Below the pieces are notes generated by a model. It saw nothing but the letters and a program-made list of their open reading frames with translations. It made no database searches and had not been told where the DNA came from. Shown piece after piece: positions 1 to 11,004 of a stretch of 11,004 nt of DNA. The position numbers and the translations under genes are program-made. How positions within the stretch are numbered: position 1 is the stretch's first letter; every line of letters begins with the position of its first letter. Location of the stretch: NCBI GenBank assembly GCA_030636485.1, contig DAOVWV010000027.1, forward strand, positions 1 through 11,004, written 5' to 3'. The stretch comes from Methyloprofundus sp. (GTDB taxonomy: Bacteria; Pseudomonadota; Gammaproteobacteria; Methylococcales; Methylomonadaceae).

Positions 1-339
1 AAAGGCAAACCCGACCATCCTGGGTTTGCGCCACATGCGCCGGTGCAACAGAAACGAAAAGCATTTGTCGTAGTAGCCTGCGCCCATGCCCAGCCGATTC
101 CCATTTGTATCAAATGCCACCAGCGGGCTAATCACGAGATCGAGCCAGCGTGGGCTCATGAAGTGACCAGGTCCGGTGACAGGTTCAAGAATCCCGAATT
201 GATTGGTACGCAATTCGGTGTCTTCATCAAAATGTGCAAACCTCAAATGATTGAGATTGTCGATCACTGGCAGGTATACAGTTTTACCCGCGGTTAGCGC
301 AGCCGCGATTATCTGACCGGTATCAAGTTCACCATCAAA
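1..339 (-). other. 5-formyltetrahydrofolate cyclo-ligase portion of the chimeric ORF (N-terminally truncated, continues past window)
   Basis: This segment encodes the cyclo-ligase part of the fused frame. The family (E. coli YgfA) converts 5-formyl-THF to 5,10-methenyl-THF with ATP. From memory, the E. coli protein has SFDGELDT followed by AGKRVYLPVL, then TPLVAFDEYGxRLGMGGGFYDR. The window protein has FDGELDT, AGKTVYLPVI and SPLVAFDTNGNRLGMGAGYYDK in the same order and spacing, so the identification is firm. The N-terminal third, including the basic nucleotide-binding residues, is replaced by PabB sequence. The last part of the enzyme lies beyond position 1. Confidence 0.85.
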
Positions 340-1533
340 ACCGATATAGGCAATGGAACCACAATAAATACCACGCCGGTGCGGCTCCAGCTCTTCGATA
401 ATTTCCATCGCACGGATTTTCGGTGCTCCGGTAATCGAGCCCCCCGGAAAACAGCTACGCAATAAATCCAGCGCATGATGATCACCTGCTAATTGGCCGG
501 TCACCGTACTGACCAAATGATGTACCGTGGCATAACTTTCCACATCAAACAGCTTAGGCACTTTCACTGAGCCTGGAATACAGTTTTTACTAATATCATT
601 GCGCAATAAATCCACAATCATCACATTTTCAGCACGGTCTTTATGGCTTTTCTGTAAATCGCTGATTTGTTGCTGATTCGCCTGCTCACTGTCTTTTCTC
701 GGTCGCGTCCCTTTAATAGGCTTGGTTTCCACCATCCCATTCGATACTTTTAGAAAACGCTCGGGCGAAGAACTCAGTACCTGCACGCCCGGCACATTCA
801 AATAACCACTAAAGGGAGCAGAGTTAATTTGCCGTAACTGCCGATAAGCGAGCCAAGGCTCCCCTTCACAACTAGCAACAAAGCGCTGCGCCAGATTAAC
901 CTGGTAACAGTCACCTTCTTTTAAATAGTGCTTAATTTTAGCAAAGGCCTGAGCATATCTTTCTTGCGTCATATTAGACTGAATGTCACTGGTGACCTGA
1001 AAGCTATCTGTACTTTGCTTGTGTGGATAATTACTAAATTGTTCAATCAAAGTCTGCCAGTGCTCTGGATTATCTGCACAACCGACCAGATAGCTTTTTT
1101 CTTGCTGGTGATCCACCACCACAGCCCATTGATAAATACCCACTGCCATATCCGGGATATGCTCAGCATCTTCGGCAATTTCTGGGAGCGATTCCAGATT
1201 TCTGCCTAAATCATAGGCAAAATACCCTATGGCTCCGCCATTAAAAGGGACTTCTGCAAAAGAGGGCTGTACAGGTAGTTGTTGTTTAATCAGTGTAAAC
1301 GGATCCTGCTCTGAAACAAATGCCTTATCAGCGGTAGAAACCGTGGTTTGTTGGCCTTGCGTCACTAAAGTACAGACAGGATCAACCGCTAAAATATCAT
1401 AGCGCCCCTGCCGCTTTTCGGCGAGACCACTATCGAGAAAAACGGCCCAAGGCTGGCTAGCAATGGCAGCAAACAATCGCGCGCTATCGGATAAATAAGG
1501 TAATACATAAAGCTGGTGGGTAGAAAGCGACAT
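1..1533 (-). CDS. pabB: Chimeric ORF: aminodeoxychorismate synthase component I (PabB) running in frame into 5-formyltetrahydrofolate cyclo-ligase; 3' end outside window
   Basis: Reading from ATG at 1533, 511 codons are open to the window edge. Residues 1 to about 400 match PabB, which with PabA converts chorismate plus glutamine nitrogen to 4-amino-4-deoxychorismate for folate. Visible PabB/TrpE-family motifs are SSSPERFL (254-261), PIKGTRPR (272-279, with the catalytic lysine typical of PabB), NVMIVDLLRND (303-313), FPGGSITGAPK (362-372) and YCGSIAYIGFDG (390-401). After FDGELDT (399-405) the protein no longer continues with the family's final block (IAIRT, then GGGIVADSxPxxEYxET). Instead it reads as 5-formyltetrahydrofolate cyclo-ligase: AGKTVYLPVI (415-424), SPLVAFDTNGNRLGMGAGYYDK (about 469-490). 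No stop or frameshift lies at the join. The PabB Mg2+/chorismate C-terminal block and the cyclo-ligase N-terminus (about 50-60 residues) are both absent, so neither activity is assured. No clear ribosome binding site precedes 1533; the start is the natural PabB N-terminus (MSLSTHQLYVLPY). Confidence 0.9.
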   Translation of the reverse strand, partial: MSLSTHQLYVLPYLSDSARLFAAIASQPWAVFLDSGLAEKRQGRYDILAVDPVCTLVTQGQQTTVSTADKAFVSEQDPFTLIKQQLPVQPSFAEVPFNGGAIGYFAYDLGRNLESLPEIAEDAEHIPDMAVGIYQWAVVVDHQQEKSYLVGCADNPEHWQTLIEQFSNYPHKQSTDSFQVTSDIQSNMTQERYAQAFAKIKHYLKEGDCYQVNLAQRFVASCEGEPWLAYRQLRQINSAPFSGYLNVPGVQVLSSSPERFLKVSNGMVETKPIKGTRPRKDSEQANQQQISDLQKSHKDRAENVMIVDLLRNDISKNCIPGSVKVPKLFDVESYATVHHLVSTVTGQLAGDHHALDLLRSCFPGGSITGAPKIRAMEIIEELEPHRRGIYCGSIAYIGFDGELDTGQIIAAALTAGKTVYLPVIDNLNHLRFAHFDEDTELRTNQFGILEPVTGPGHFMSPRWLDLVISPLVAFDTNGNRLGMGAGYYDKCFSFLLHRRMWRKPRMVGFAF

Positions 1534-1840
1534 GACGATTAACTGAATATGGTGTATTTCATAGGGGGGTGGCATTTAAGCCCTTTTGATAGACAGCTCA
1601 ATGAACTGTCAGTACTCACGATATTACTCAAAATGCATATTCCATATTCAAATGGTAATTTTAACAAATATTACTCACTAAAACATATTTCATTTGTCGT
1701 TTTACAGTTAACGCCTTAACCACTTAAGCAATCTTTCCTCCAGAAATGCAATATCCTGATAGCAACACAGCTCAATATTTAATTCCCGCACACGATCACA
1801 ATATGATGCGGCTGCAATTTATTCACACTGACCAATTATG

Positions 1841-1876
1841 GGTTCCCAGTAGACAGACTTCGGGAATGACGACCTT
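1841..1876 (-). repeat. REP-like palindromic repeat, copy A
   Basis: On the minus strand this segment reads GGTCGTCATTCCCGAAGTCT and onward. Its 24 bases at 1853-1876 are an exact inverted copy of 9183-9206. The copy then continues with weaker similarity (TACTGGGAACC here against TATCGGGAATC there), which closes a TTCCC/GGGAA hairpin. Intergenic elements starting CGTCATTCCCG and ending CGGGAAT are common REP-like repeats in proteobacteria. The placement in a spacer and the hairpin form fit that class. Confidence 0.7.
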
Positions 1877-1956
1877 ACCCAGCTCAACTGAGCACAAGCT
1901 TTATCTGCATTGACCTGTGAATAATGAGAAGTTACCAAGCGAAGCGGCAAAGCGTT

Positions 1957-1978
1957 GATTTATCGGGCGCGATAAATC
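1957..1978. repeat. Perfect 8-bp inverted repeat (GATTTATC / GATAAATC)
   Basis: GATTTATC (1957-1964) and GATAAATC (1971-1978) are exact reverse complements separated by the six bases GGGCGC. The GC-rich loop between AT-rich arms resembles intergenic repeats built around GCGATTTATCGC seen in several gammaproteobacteria. There is no T-run after either arm, so it is not a standard terminator. It more likely belongs to the repeat content of this spacer. Confidence 0.5.
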
Positions 1979-2124
1979 CTAATGAGATTTACAGGTGAGG
2001 TGCCCACTATCTGTACGGTAAAAAGGAATTTACCTGGATTGTAGAATAGATAGGTTTACTGATCAAAGTGAAACAAGAGACGGTATTCCTTGTAAGTCAT
2101 GCCAATTTCCTTATCAACAGGCAT

Positions 2125-2148
2125 AAAAAAACCCCAATTAAGGGGTTT
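2125..2148 (-). terminator. Rho-independent terminator of the initiator tRNA gene
   Basis: Nine bases after the tRNA 3' end, the minus strand has a 7-bp perfect stem AAACCCC / GGGGTTT around the loop TTAATT. A run of seven T residues (2125-2131), overlapping the distal stem, completes it. The geometry and position are those of an intrinsic terminator ending the single-tRNA transcript. Confidence 0.9.
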
Positions 2149-2157
2149 CTAAATATC

Positions 2158-2234
<77 letters not shown>

Positions 2235-2247
2235 ATTGATTTGTACT

Positions 2248-2275
2248 ATTATACTGAGTATTTCCTATCTGGCAA
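2248..2275 (-). promoter_or_regulatory. Sigma70-type promoter of the initiator tRNA gene
   Basis: On the minus strand TTGCCA (2270-2275) and a perfect TATAAT (2248-2253) are separated by 16 bp. The predicted start near 2241 lies about 7 bases before the mature tRNA 5' end. The promoter sits in the short gap after the pgpA stop, so the tRNA can be expressed independently of the thiL-pgpA transcript. Confidence 0.8.
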
Positions 2276-2282
2276 GTCTTTT

Positions 2283-2777
2283 TTAAAATAAATTAAAAAT
2301 AACTAACAAACCCCCAGCAAACAGGCCTGCAATCACATCATCCAACATAATGCCAAAGCCACCTGATACCTTTTGATCTATCCATTTTATAGGCCAAGGC
2401 TTGAGTATATCAAAAAATCTAAACAATACAAACCCCAATATCAGATTTTGCCAGGAAAAAGAGACAAACCACATCGTAATCAAAAGTCCTGCAATTTCAT
2501 CCCAGACGATCCCACCAAAATCATGTTCTCCCAGCCTATCAGCAGCGACACCACAAATCCAGATACCTGACACTGTACATATAATGGTCAGCAGACTATA
2601 GACAAGAATATGGGTTTGTACCAGTGCGATATAGATAGGAACAGCTGCTAAAGTCCCAAAGGTTCCCGGCGCTTTTTTGGCTAGCCCGGAACCAAAGCCA
2701 AAGGCTAAACATAAAATGGGATCTAATAATATTTGCCTTGCTGTTAATTGGTTTTTTCCAACTTTCATCATAAACAT
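2283..2777 (-). CDS. pgpA: Phosphatidylglycerophosphatase A
   Basis: The 164-residue integral membrane enzyme dephosphorylates phosphatidylglycerophosphate to phosphatidylglycerol in the inner membrane. All family signatures are visible: GSGLAKKAPGTFGTL (29-43), the acidic IVWDEIAG (90-97), FRFFDILKPWPI (119-130) and GGFGIMLDDVIAGL (139-152), with the Asp/Glu residues that bind Mg2+. Length is close to E. coli PgpA (about 170). Hydrophobic segments cover roughly 45-75, 97-120 and 148-164. It follows thiL by 10 bp, the classic thiL-pgpA order. The first in-frame ATG (2777) is taken as the start, but ATGs at residues 3 and 4 are nearly equivalent and only a weak GAG precedes them. Confidence 0.95.
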   Translation of the reverse strand: MFMMKVGKNQLTARQILLDPILCLAFGFGSGLAKKAPGTFGTLAAVPIYIALVQTHILVYSLLTIICTVSGIWICGVAADRLGEHDFGGIVWDEIAGLLITMWFVSFSWQNLILGFVLFRFFDILKPWPIKWIDQKVSGGFGIMLDDVIAGLFAGGLLVIFNLF

Positions 2778-2787
2778 TGTTTTTTAC

Positions 2788-3720
2788 TCATGCAAAGTGT
2801 TCAAAGCCACTGTTATTAAAAATTGAACTAATACCATTACGCGTCAAACGCAAGCCTTGCTCCGCTTCAATCACACCAATACAGGTACAGTCTATACTCA
2901 ACTGCCGGGCATATTCAGCTGCAATGGTAAAGCATAGCTCATAATCATCCCCTGCTACCAAGGGCATCTGCCAGTCTTCGGTATGCCGCATATACTCCAT
3001 GACCGCCGTTGATAAAGGCAAGTGCTCGTAAACCAGACACGCACCCAGGCCACTTCTGCTTAATATATGCCCTAGGTCTGCCGCCAAGCCATCAGAAATA
3101 TCTATACATGCATTGGCTAAGGCGCGTATGGCTAACCCTTCCTGAATTCGGGGTTCTGGCATATTAAAGCGCTGTAACGCTTGTTCTGTCTCTCGTCCTG
3201 AATAACCTTGCTTGATTTTCAGGCCTAAACCAGCATCGCCCAGAGTACCGGTTACATAAATTAAATCCCCCACTTTTGCAGTAGAACGCCTTAAAGCCTG
3301 CTGCTTAGGAACCAATCCCATCGCCTGAACAGTTAAAGTTAAAGATCCCGATGTAGTATCCCCACCAATTAAATCAAGCTGATATTTATCAACCAAGGCA
3401 AACACTCCTTTTGCAAAATCTTGCAACCAGAGGGTATCAACCTTGGGCATTGTCAAAGCCAACGTAATGGCAATAGGCTCCGCCCCCATGCTAGCCAAGT
3501 CACTTAAATTAACCGCGACTAATTTATAGCCTAATTGCTCTGGAGGTACATCAGGGAAAAAATGCACACCTTCTACCATGGTATCAACGGTAACAGCTAG
3601 CTCGTCCCCTTCAGGCACGGAAAGCAATGCACAATCATCACCGACTGATAGTTGAGTACTTTTATGCTGCGCAGGGCGCGTAAAAAACTGTTTGATTAAA
3701 TTAAATTCTGCAAGTGCCAT
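2788..3720 (-). CDS. thiL: Thiamine-monophosphate kinase
   Basis: This 310-residue cytosolic enzyme phosphorylates thiamine monophosphate to thiamine diphosphate with ATP. Motifs in order are VGDDCALL (26-33), DTMVEGVHF (46-54), LSDLASMGA (72-80), GGDTT (119-123), VTGTLGDAG (156-164), DISDGLAADLGH (207-218) and GDDYELCFT (257-265). These supply the Mg2+ and substrate ligands expected of the AIR-synthase-fold family. Length is slightly shorter than E. coli ThiL (325) but both domains are complete. The start MALAEFNLIKQFF is the normal family N-terminus, although the bases before it carry no good Shine-Dalgarno. That suggests translational coupling to the gene 15 bp upstream. No TPP riboswitch is visible near it. 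Confidence 0.97.
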   Translation of the reverse strand: MALAEFNLIKQFFTRPAQHKSTQLSVGDDCALLSVPEGDELAVTVDTMVEGVHFFPDVPPEQLGYKLVAVNLSDLASMGAEPIAITLALTMPKVDTLWLQDFAKGVFALVDKYQLDLIGGDTTSGSLTLTVQAMGLVPKQQALRRSTAKVGDLIYVTGTLGDAGLGLKIKQGYSGRETEQALQRFNMPEPRIQEGLAIRALANACIDISDGLAADLGHILSRSGLGACLVYEHLPLSTAVMEYMRHTEDWQMPLVAGDDYELCFTIAAEYARQLSIDCTCIGVIEAEQGLRLTRNGISSIFNNSGFEHFA

Positions 3721-4971: not shown

Positions 4972-6162
4972 TTAATGCCGAGGCAAGCTAATTGAAATCA
5001 GGCTAGTCACTAAAAGAAACGCCGCCGATAGCAAAAGGCAGGCGGCTAATCCAGATTGCTGGTAAATCCAGCCTGATAGAATTGTTCCAACTAAACGCCC
5101 CATTGCATTGGCCATATAATAAAAACCAATATCCAGTGAGACACCTTCTTCTTTTGCGTACGCAACAATCAGGTATGAATGCACGGCGGAATTAATAGCG
5201 AATACCGCACCATAGACCAATAAACCAATAATTAACACGCTCTCTGTATGCCATTGCTGATATAGAAAAACAGCAATACTCAAAGGCAGAGTCGCTAACA
5301 ATAAAGCCCATAGCATTGCCGTTTTACCATCCGGCACCTTGCCTTTACGAATACCCGTAATAAAGGGGGCAACAGACTGCACTATACCGTAGCCTATGAC
5401 CCAGGCAGCAAGTAAAGCGCCAACGTCAGTGTAATCCCAATGTAACTGATCTTGAAGAAAAACAGGCAACGCAATCACGAACCAGATGTCCCGCGCAGAA
5501 AACAAAAAAAACCGTGCGGCAGACAGCTGATTTACCGCTGCACTTTTGGAAAAAATATCTGTAAATTTAGGTTTATAAGGCGTTTTTCCCAAGTCCTTTT
5601 TCATCAATAGAAAACTGAGCAGCAATACCACCACCAGACCGACTGCCATCACTGCAACCGCAGCTCTAAACCCTAGCGTTGCCAATAGCATAGAGCCTAA
5701 AAAAAAGCCCACTCCCTTTAGCGTATTTTTAGAACCGGTAAGTAGCGATACCCACTGGTATAGCTTTCCTTGCGCATGTCTGGGCACGAGTAATTTAATA
5801 CTACTTTTCGCACTCATTTTATTCAGGTCTTTTGCCATCCCAGACACCGCCTGAGCTATCATGACATAAACCACACTGAGCAACGATGGTTCGACCATTA
5901 GCATGGCCAAAGCAACAATCTGTAATGCCAGGCCAAATTGCAGGGTCGTATTCAGCCCCATATGTGCCGCTATCCAACCACCGACCAGGTTGGTAATGAC
6001 ACCACAGAACTCATACAATAAAAATAAGCTGGCTACCTCCAGAGGACTATAGCCTAATTGGTGAAAATATAAAATCACCAACATCCTCAGCGCACCATCA
6101 GTCAAAGTAAAGGCCCAGTAACTGGCCGTCACCAACATATATTGCTGCACAGGCGTACTCAT
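4972..6162 (-). CDS. arsJ: Organoarsenical efflux MFS transporter ArsJ
   Basis: This 396-residue major facilitator has about 12 hydrophobic segments. It carries the distinctive ArsJ sequence FTLTDGALRMLVILYFHQLG (18-37), then YEFCGVITNLVGGW, SGMAKDLNKMSAKSSIKLLV and LLTGSKNTLKGVGFFLG. These closely follow Pseudomonas ArsJ as I remember it. ArsJ exports 1-arseno-3-phosphoglycerate, the unstable product formed when GAPDH uses arsenate instead of phosphate. Outside, the product falls apart to arsenate and 3-phosphoglycerate. The gene starts 4 bp after the stop of the dedicated GAPDH, the known arsJ arrangement, which strongly supports the assignment. It ends PRH-stop, 176 bp before the chosen YqaA-family start. 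Confidence 0.93.
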   Translation of the reverse strand: MSTPVQQYMLVTASYWAFTLTDGALRMLVILYFHQLGYSPLEVASLFLLYEFCGVITNLVGGWIAAHMGLNTTLQFGLALQIVALAMLMVEPSLLSVVYVMIAQAVSGMAKDLNKMSAKSSIKLLVPRHAQGKLYQWVSLLTGSKNTLKGVGFFLGSMLLATLGFRAAVAVMAVGLVVVLLLSFLLMKKDLGKTPYKPKFTDIFSKSAAVNQLSAARFFLFSARDIWFVIALPVFLQDQLHWDYTDVGALLAAWVIGYGIVQSVAPFITGIRKGKVPDGKTAMLWALLLATLPLSIAVFLYQQWHTESVLIIGLLVYGAVFAINSAVHSYLIVAYAKEEGVSLDIGFYYMANAMGRLVGTILSGWIYQQSGLAACLLLSAAFLLVTSLISISLPRH

Positions 6163-6166
6163 AATC

Positions 6167-7180
6167 TTAGATATCCAATAACAATGCCAGTTTTTTAGTC
6201 AATTCCATCATTCGATGAACATAACCTATTTCATTGTCATACCAAAGCAATAACTTAACTTGTGTTCCATCTATGACCATCGTTGATAAGGCATCCACAG
6301 TACAGGAATGAGTATCATTGGTGTAGTCTGCGGAAACCAGAGGCTTTGTTTCATAGTTTAAAACACCTTTCAGGCTACCTAAAGCTGCACTTTCCAGTGC
6401 AGCATTCACTGCATCAACGCTAACGGGTTGTGCTACTTCAAAAACACAGTCCGTTAAAGAGGCATTTGCCAAAGGAACCCGAACAGCAATACCATTCAGC
6501 TTACCTTTTAATTCTGGAAATATTTCTGTGATAGCCGTTGCCGAACCTGTTGTTGTCGGGATAAGTGATAGGCCGCTAGCTCTTGCCCGGCGTAAATCAG
6601 GGTGATATTCATCCAGTATGCTCTGGGTATTGGTAATGTCGTGAATGGTCGTAATTGACCCATGTTTAATCGCAAAATTTTCATGGATCACTTTAAGTGC
6701 TGGCGCAATACAATTAGTCGTACAGGAAGCAGCAGTAACAATATTGTGTACCTCTGGGTTATAGAGATGATCATTAACCCCCATCACAATATTTAAAGTA
6801 CCATCCTTTACTGGCGCAGAAACCACGACTTTTTTCACCCCCTGCTCAAGATAAGGTGCCAAAGCCTCTTTGGATTTAAACTTGCCGGTGCATTCGACCA
6901 CGATATCAACACCGAGTTCATGCCACGGCGTTTGTTCAATGCTGGAATTCTGTGTATAACCCACCCGCTGGTTGTTGATCAACAACCCCAACTCATCACT
7001 ATCGACAAGCTGCCCCCAACGGCCATGCACTGAATCATAATTAAGCAAATGGGCAGCTGACGCTGCATCGCCTGCTATTTCATTGATATGCACTATCTCA
7101 AATTCAGGCCAACCCCATGCTGCCCGAAAGGCCAGCCTACCCATACGACCAAAGCCGTTAATTCCGATTTTAATTGTCAT
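6167..7180 (-). CDS. ArsJ-associated glyceraldehyde-3-phosphate dehydrogenase
   Basis: The 337-residue type I GAPDH has the Rossmann motif INGFGRMGR (7-15), catalytic cysteine in ASCTTNC (Cys153), catalytic histidine in [10 protein letters not shown] (His180) and the C-terminal WYDNEIGY. Two departures from ordinary glycolytic GAPDH mark it as the arsenate-linked type. [15 protein letters not shown] (32-46) replaces the usual IND pattern. GSATAI replaces GAAKAV after the TTT segment. It probably catalyses arsenylation of glyceraldehyde-3-phosphate to 1-arseno-3-phosphoglycerate with NAD+, feeding ArsJ. No good Shine-Dalgarno is seen. A palindromic GTATATAC (7191-7198) and a 9-bp hairpin lie just upstream. 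No arsR gene is in the window, so the inducer-sensing regulator is not evident. Confidence 0.93.
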
Positions 7181-9319: not shown

Positions 9320-10852
9320 TCACCTTTGCTCATGCAACTGAATATTAATGATCCTCAGCGCAGCCAAAATAGCGGCAAAAACCTGATTGGAATGTACACC
9401 ACGGGTTTTACGATTATTATTATCACAATCCCAGGTAATCACACATTCTGTCAGCGCACTGGTATGTCCGCCTTTGGGGATTCTGACTTCATAGTCCAGC
9501 AAAGCAGGCAACGCATAATCATGCAGCTTCATGACTTTGTTAATCGCATCTATAAAGGCATCAAAGCCACCATTTCCAGAGCCTGCGGCAACATGTTGCT
9601 CACCTCTCACATCCACACGTAAACTGACGGTTGATTCTAAGTCAAAGCCACTGGTGATGGTGCAGTTAAGTAGTTTGATATGTTGATAATTTTTACTTTC
9701 CAATACATCAGCGATGATAAAAGGCAGGTCATCGGTGGTAATGGTTTGTTTGGAGTCGCCTAACCTCACAATTCTGGCTAGGACTTTTTTCTGGTTTTCC
9801 TCTGAAAGATCGAGTTCCAGTAGTTCCAGGTTCTTTTTTAGCGAAGCCTTGCCGCTCATTTTACCTAGCGCATAGCTATGAATACGTGAAAAACGTTCGG
9901 GCACTAATTTGCTTTTATACAAGTCACCTTTTTGATCACCATCAGCATGAATACCCGCCGTTTGGGTGAATACATCGGTGCCAATAATGGGGGTGTTCGC
10001 TGCAACGCGCTTACCGGAAAAGTTCTCGACTAAATTGCTGGTGCGCATCAAATGGCTTTCATCAATGGATAATTCCATCTGCATTTTGTCACGCAACACC
10101 ACACTCACTTGTGCCAGCGATGCATTCCCTGCCCTTTCTCCCAGGCAGTTAACCGTACAATGAATGGAATTTATTCCGGCTCGTACAGCAGCCATGACAT
10201 TCGCAGTGGCCAGGCCATAATCATTATGCGGATGAAAGTCAAAATGCAACTCTGGGTAACGATGACACATATCGCTTAAGCTATCAAAGACCTCATCAGG
10301 CGACATAACTCCCAAGGTATCAGGCAGCATAAAGTGATTGATGCCAGTACGTTGCAGGCGATCCATTAATTCAAACACATAATTACGGTTATCGCGATAG
10401 CCATTAGACCAATCTTCGAGATAGGCATTAACCGCTAGGCCTTTACTCAGTGCATACTCCACCGTTTTAAGAATATCATCGACATGCTGTTGCAGGGTTT
10501 TCCCCAACTGATCCCGGCAATGCTTTTCACTGCCTTTGGTCAGCAGATTGATAACACTACCGCCTGATTCCAGTATCCAGTCGACACTACGCGTGTGGTC
10601 AACAAACCCCAAGACTTCGACACGGCCATCAAAACCTTCTTCACGCGCCCATTCATTAATTCGCTTTACCGCTTGCTTTTCGCCTTCTGACACGCGTGCA
10701 GAAGCGACTTCAATTCGATCAACCTGTAATGATTGCAGGAGTGCTTTAGCGATATTTAGCTTCTCATCAGGCGCATAGGAAACCCCTTGAGTTTGCTCGC
10801 CATCACGTAAAGTGGTATCCATTATCTGGATATGTCGGGGGTGCGTGGACAT
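9320..10852 (-). CDS. cimA: (R)-citramalate synthase, Leptospira type
   Basis: The 510-residue protein of the isopropylmalate synthase family has a catalytic TIM barrel with DTTLRDGEQ (12-20; Arg16, Asp17), metal-binding HPH (His207, His209), NCLGERAGN (235-243), linker subdomains with GIHADGDQKGDLY, and a C-terminal LeuA-dimer regulatory domain (about 385-505). It aligns almost without gaps to Leptospira CimA as I remember it. The pyruvate-pocket residues coincide: Leu81, Leu104, Tyr144, Glu146 and Thr179, where isopropylmalate synthases carry His and Ser at two sites. It should condense pyruvate and acetyl-CoA to (R)-citramalate, a threonine-free route to isoleucine. The regulatory pocket keeps Asp431, Leu451, Tyr454 and Ile458 but has Phe430 where I recall Tyr. 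AAGG about 9 bases before ATG 10852 is the likely ribosome binding site. An automatic annotation might call it LeuA. Confidence 0.88.
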   Translation of the reverse strand: MSTHPRHIQIMDTTLRDGEQTQGVSYAPDEKLNIAKALLQSLQVDRIEVASARVSEGEKQAVKRINEWAREEGFDGRVEVLGFVDHTRSVDWILESGGSVINLLTKGSEKHCRDQLGKTLQQHVDDILKTVEYALSKGLAVNAYLEDWSNGYRDNRNYVFELMDRLQRTGINHFMLPDTLGVMSPDEVFDSLSDMCHRYPELHFDFHPHNDYGLATANVMAAVRAGINSIHCTVNCLGERAGNASLAQVSVVLRDKMQMELSIDESHLMRTSNLVENFSGKRVAANTPIIGTDVFTQTAGIHADGDQKGDLYKSKLVPERFSRIHSYALGKMSGKASLKKNLELLELDLSEENQKKVLARIVRLGDSKQTITTDDLPFIIADVLESKNYQHIKLLNCTITSGFDLESTVSLRVDVRGEQHVAAGSGNGGFDAFIDAINKVMKLHDYALPALLDYEVRIPKGGHTSALTECVITWDCDNNNRKTRGVHSNQVFAAILAALRIINIQLHEQR

Positions 10853-11004
10853 GTGTGTGTGCCTTAGAAAATGTACAGGAGGGACTGATATTCAACCCAA
10901 AACCAAAGGGTTTATACTCTCATTCCCACGCAGAAAGCGTCACTGCCATTAAGTGAGTGGCGAGAGACATAGGATGTGCTGAGGCACGAAGCGCATCTTT
11001 TGGA
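10853..11004. other. Spacer upstream of cimA with repeat material
   Basis: No coding signal is seen. Directly before the cimA start is a short (AC)n run. Copy 2 of the dispersed repeat is at 10922-10957. Beyond it, GATGTGC (about 10973-10979) can pair with GCGCATC (about 10991-10997) around TGAGGCACGAA-like sequence, another REP-like hairpin. TATAAA (minus strand, about 10911-10916) could be a -10 element, but no good -35 accompanies it. Confidence 0.45.
10922..10957. repeat. Dispersed intergenic repeat, copy 2
   Basis: The segment contains TCCCACGC, GCGTCACTGCCATTAAGT, matching 7322-7355 apart from a few substitutions and a small length difference near the centre. Here the 6-bp hairpin arm of copy 1 is degraded (CAGAAAGCG instead of CGGAGCG). 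Confidence 0.6.

Follow-up and report, generated by a model that had tools for sequence, protein, structure and literature searches.

In the PabB family (component I of aminodeoxychorismate synthase) the C-terminal block that carries EYQE contributes to the Mg/chorismate site. We found no report, in the open-licence PMC literature, of a protein in which PabB is fused to 5-formyltetrahydrofolate cyclo-ligase (FTCL, or MTHFS). Chimeric contigs in draft metagenome bins are marked by a foreign tip, a break in the middle of a gene, and the rest of that gene at the tip of another contig.

In this paper we analyse a window of 11,004 bases, which is the complete contig C169 of a draft Methyloprofundus sp. 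genome (394 contigs, 63% complete) and which carries at its start a reading frame that begins as PabB and ends as FTCL. We consider, with a probability of roughly 95%, that this apparent fusion is a chimeric contig end and no gene fusion. The draft assembly would have left an ordinary pabB in two pieces, one on C169 (from 1533 down to 332) and one on contig C108 (starting at base 3102 of that contig), and the 56 nt that separate them would be absent from the assembly. A 331-nt FTCL fragment of another, probably gammaproteobacterial, member of the community would then have been attached to the tip of C169, at a short stretch common to both genes, the AY[I/V]GFDG codons.

The open frame at the end of the contig

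The frame lies on the minus strand and runs from window position 1575 to position 1 (525 amino acids, no stops), where it is still open; the plus strand of positions 1-1533 contains many stops. The original prediction of one uninterrupted frame leading from PabB into FTCL, with FDGELDT at 339-319, is correct for the minus strand. The start of pabB is the ATG at 1533, with a further in-frame ATG at 1575. The Pfam models Anth_synt_I_N (PF04715, residues 32-163) and Chorismate_bind (PF00425, residues 204-434, profile positions 2-234 of 257) both match the translated frame above cut-off, and 5-FTHF_cyc-lig (PF01812) matches residues 409-524 (profile positions 45-162 of 186). Both NCBIfam models also exceed their cut-offs, TIGR00553 (PabB) with 334.1 against 328.4 bits and TIGR02727 (FTCL, residues 409-513) with 94.4 against 84.9 bits. 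From these domain matches and the DNA similarity to the genes of congeners, positions 332..1533 (minus strand) are the 5' part of pabB, about 400 of its 457 codons. Positions 1..331 (minus strand) hold the internal part of a presumably foreign FTCL gene, as indicated by PF01812, by a 96% identity to a metagenomic FTCL (P0001) and by codon composition. Because the window is the whole contig, the FTCL part consists of its outermost 331 bases and is cut inside FTCL by the contig edge.

The C-terminal GGGIVxDSxxxxEY block of PabB is absent from the frame. The FTCL domain is without its N-terminal quarter and its C-terminal end, and covers residues 34-151 of the 187 of P0001. The losses foreseen for both enzymes, the PabB block and the FTCL N-terminus, are thus seen in the Pfam matches and in the alignments, and a hybrid without the EYQE block and the FTCL N-terminal quarter would more probably have lost both functions than gained a new one.

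Other proteins with the same junction, which had been proposed as a sign of an inherited fusion, were not encountered. When the join region was used as the query and proteins of fusion length were admitted, none of the best 120 of 1379 matches (the window's own frame was not among the 120 listed) combined PF00425 with PF01812. The FTCL-bearing proteins among the 120 were P0121 (FTCL alone), P0122 (with PF06026, ribose-5-phosphate isomerase) and P0230 (with PF02875/PF08245, which we take to be Mur-ligase-type domains). In 40 relatives there was no place with both a PabB and an FTCL match, and 23 bases of the join had no exact match among the viral contigs searched.

Several other features of the contig were noted. 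Between pabB and pgpA (window 1534-2283) there are about 700 bases with a tRNA-Met (2158-2234). The DNA similarity to congener G014 upstream of pabB reaches only window 1676, and the compared stretches of the relatives have other genes upstream of pabB and no tRNA-Met/pgpA flank, so that this flank is possibly a rearrangement, or another misjoin. On the minus strand at 4972-7180, a glyceraldehyde-3-phosphate dehydrogenase (GAPDH) gene is directly followed by one for an MFS-like membrane protein. The former scores 541 bits against a cut-off of 450 with the NCBIfam model for ArsJ-associated glyceraldehyde-3-phosphate dehydrogenase, and together with the putative MFS protein it resembles the known ArsJ/GAPDH pair for resistance to arsenate. 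A 510-aa protein (9320-10852, minus strand) has the Leptospira-type (R)-citramalate synthase CimA as its best model, with 641 bits, below the cut-off of 950. Near the other end of the contig, 36 bases (10962-10997) match G014:C96:6872-6907 at 94% but their surroundings do not, and they may belong to a dispersed repeat at which the contig stopped.

The break in pabB and its missing end

The break was mapped by comparing window DNA with 19 pabB loci (L003-L021), 16 from congeners and 3 from other genera. The similarity of the congener genes (75-85%) ends at window position 332 in 14 of the 16 and at 331 in the other two. It ends at 332 in one of the three genes of other genera and at 319 in two, as PabB there reads GNMDT and a few more bases agree. 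When the whole window was compared with ten loci, nine of them among the congener genes above, the similarity ended at 332 in all but one, where it ended at 331. In the protein alignment, all 18 relatives go on with NMD[S/T]N and the AGGGIV.DS..EY block; this alignment left out L012, which agrees with the rest in the 19-locus DNA test. The GGGIVxDSxxxxEY pattern itself is present in 19/19 loci.

In the join region (331..354, minus strand) the alignments place the codons for AYIGFDG of PabB against those for AYVGFDG of P0001. PabB reads GSIAYIGFDG-NMDS, P0001 reads RVAAYVGFDG-ELDT, and the window reads GSIAYIGFDG-ELDT. Because the isoleucine is that of PabB and ELDT is that of FTCL, the switch lies within the GFDG codons, and the two enzymes do meet at a common FDG motif as had been proposed. 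The bases around the break are ..TATATCGGTTTTGATGG|TGAACTTG.. and, since the reading frame of the AY[I/V]GFDG codons is the same in both genes, any join within them is automatically in frame; the open frame is therefore no evidence against a chimera. We estimate from the donor protein that the identical bases common to both genes at the join number up to about 13, if the FTCL valine codon is GTC. Such a stretch is shorter than the usual assembly word, so that a pure graph error would be less likely than a library fragment or read that was itself chimeric, at a place of thin coverage. The chimera may have arisen by template switching or ligation in a library fragment, or when the assembler extended the contig where coverage was thin.

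The part of PabB that is missing from C169 is present at the end of C108 (3102 bases). A search of the own genome matched Chorismate_bind profile positions 236-257 there with 21.7 bits, below cut-off. The minus strand of C108, from base 3102 (the last of the contig) onwards, encodes FWAGGGIVNDSVKEAEYQECFDKAAAMISLLRQMRSS followed by a stop, beginning two bases in, and the missing PabB end, FWAGGGIVNDS..EYQE.., starts at the last base of the contig. With the intact PabB of G014 as the query, the own genome gave three matches, on C169, C108 and C170. Residues 1-411 match C169 at 85% identity (about the last ten residues lie inside the tail), and residues 421-456 match C108:2993-3100 at 89% identity (E 1.1e-15). 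The match on C170 has 35% identity and resembles a more distant paralogue of the relatives. After the break the 16 congener pabB genes match again on C108, and, measured on the genes of 19/19 relatives, C108 starts 56 nt beyond the break. Beyond pabB, C108 continues with a kinase-like gene, a 240-aa ORF, truA and a 286-aa ORF; truA and the kinase-like gene are so named here by our reading of the sequence. In 5/5 relatives (G009, G010, G014, G016 and G001) pabB is followed by the first three of these, arranged as on C108. The 286-aa ORF comes next in G009, G010 and G014 and partly in G001, and has no match in G016.

Because the pabB end stands on C108 together with the usual downstream genes, the pabB of this genome is best read as ordinary and split over two contigs. 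C169 and C108 would then be adjacent in the cell, with the 56 nt between them missing, as homology with the relatives indicates. A second, intact pabB may be present elsewhere in the genome, which is 63% complete. The proposal of a selected fusion with altered function finds no support, as the very end that PabB would have lost is present in the same genome. The search of the own genome for complete genes, which had been suggested, recovered the pabB end on C108 and no FTCL match other than the tail.

Origin of the FTCL tail and rival explanations

The search with the tail used window 1-348, that is 116 residues, of which six lie at or before the break. Along its full length the tail matches three metagenomic FTCLs that carry no PabB part, one of 187 aa (96% identity), one of 202 aa (84%) and another of 187 aa (79%). 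The closest, P0001, is a stand-alone protein of 187 aa, encoded on a JGI contig of 1767 bases, with the source label 5-formyltetrahydrofolate cyclo-ligase. Among the 17 other genomes of the genus, ten have an FTCL family match, that of G007 being a fragment of 69 residues at the edge of a contig. With the FTCLs of these ten, P0001 shares 29-37% identity. Over short stretches the identity between the tail and the FTCLs of congeners amounts to 39-50%, so that the description of the tail as foreign depends on the contrast with 96%. The best match in the order, besides the window, has 44% identity (301 genomes, 131 matched, own included), and the best in the class has 52% among the matches listed (369 genomes, 199 matched at E<=1e-30). 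A scan of genome contigs for the donor gave six loci from metagenome-assembled genomes, named Gammaproteobacteria or Proteobacteria, at 37-47% identity; one of the weaker matches is named Bacillota.

The composition of the tail was compared with 203 overlapping windows of 110 codons each from nine other gene stretches of the contig. Its GC3, 0.559, is the highest on the contig (others 0.30-0.545, mean 0.415); since these windows overlap and the next value, 0.545, is close, this is no more than an indication. Similarity and composition together suggest that the two sides of the join come from different genomes, and a recent horizontal acquisition would look alike. The tail most likely derives from another organism of the sampled community; its assignment to the Gammaproteobacteria is a guess based on how the weaker matches are named.

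The FTCL family match is lacking in three congeners that are 98-99% complete (G001, G005 and G011), and FTCL has perhaps been lost or replaced in part of the genus.

The strongest rival, which we nevertheless judge very improbable, is a real, strain-specific fusion: an FTCL gene obtained by horizontal transfer would have recombined into pabB by way of the AYxGFDG codons, with C108 carrying either the displaced remainder of pabB or part of an intact second copy. The frame is open throughout, as a fusion would have it, and a second pabB copy could be missing from a genome that is only 63% complete. Such a fusion would require gene transfer, in-frame recombination and a contig break inside FTCL, together with a coincidental second contig break 56 nt past the join, and its product would be without the conserved PabB GGGIV..EY block and the FTCL N-terminal quarter. 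C108 retains the genes that usually lie downstream of pabB, and the best 120 of the 1379 matches offer no other example.

A deletion between a pabB and an FTCL gene lying in tandem in one genome, which the original prediction put forward, has a still smaller chance of being correct, and is contradicted both by the order of genes in the relatives and by where the tail comes from. It is suggested by the fact that both are folate genes and that both have the FDG motif at the join. In five relatives the kinase-like gene, the 240-aa ORF and truA come directly after pabB, and the stretches searched contain no FTCL match next to it. The tail is not close to the FTCLs of the genus, to which its 96% match is only 29-37% identical, and with such a deletion the PabB end would have been lost as well, yet that end is present on C108. 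Equally slight are the chances of a mixed population of fusion cells and intact-pabB cells that forked the assembly graph: the genome bin contains the pabB 3' end in both versions, but C108 starts 56 nt past the break, as would be expected of a coverage gap and not of a fork, and the tail has just 331 nt and ends inside a gene.

The assembly misjoin, which had been named as an alternative, agrees with the pabB end on C108, the exact break and the foreign tail. In a chimeric contig end of this kind, a join at a motif common to two unrelated proteins would produce a perfectly in-frame "fusion protein" ready to be annotated. The significance of the case is that of a warning only: where a fusion is claimed from the tip of a contig in a draft genome, the missing halves should be sought.

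Comparison with known systems

The PabB side of the frame resembles PabB of known structure (PDB 1k0e, 8rp1), with which it aligns over query residues 25-428 (E about 4e-124), and it has 85% identity to the intact protein of congener G014. It differs from PabB in that the final part (NMDSN..GGGIV..EYQE..) is replaced by FTCL residues and stands on C108. The other side resembles FTCL (TIGR02727; PDB 1sou, 1ydm) in that residues 409-513 exceed the NCBIfam cut-off and in its 96% identity to P0001. Unlike a complete FTCL, the fragment is without the N-terminal quarter, is cut at its C-terminal end, and is far from the FTCL of the genus. With the chimeric contigs of draft metagenome bins the locus shares a foreign tip, a break within a gene and the remainder of that gene at the tip of another contig; it differs from them in that the join is in frame, through a motif common to both proteins.
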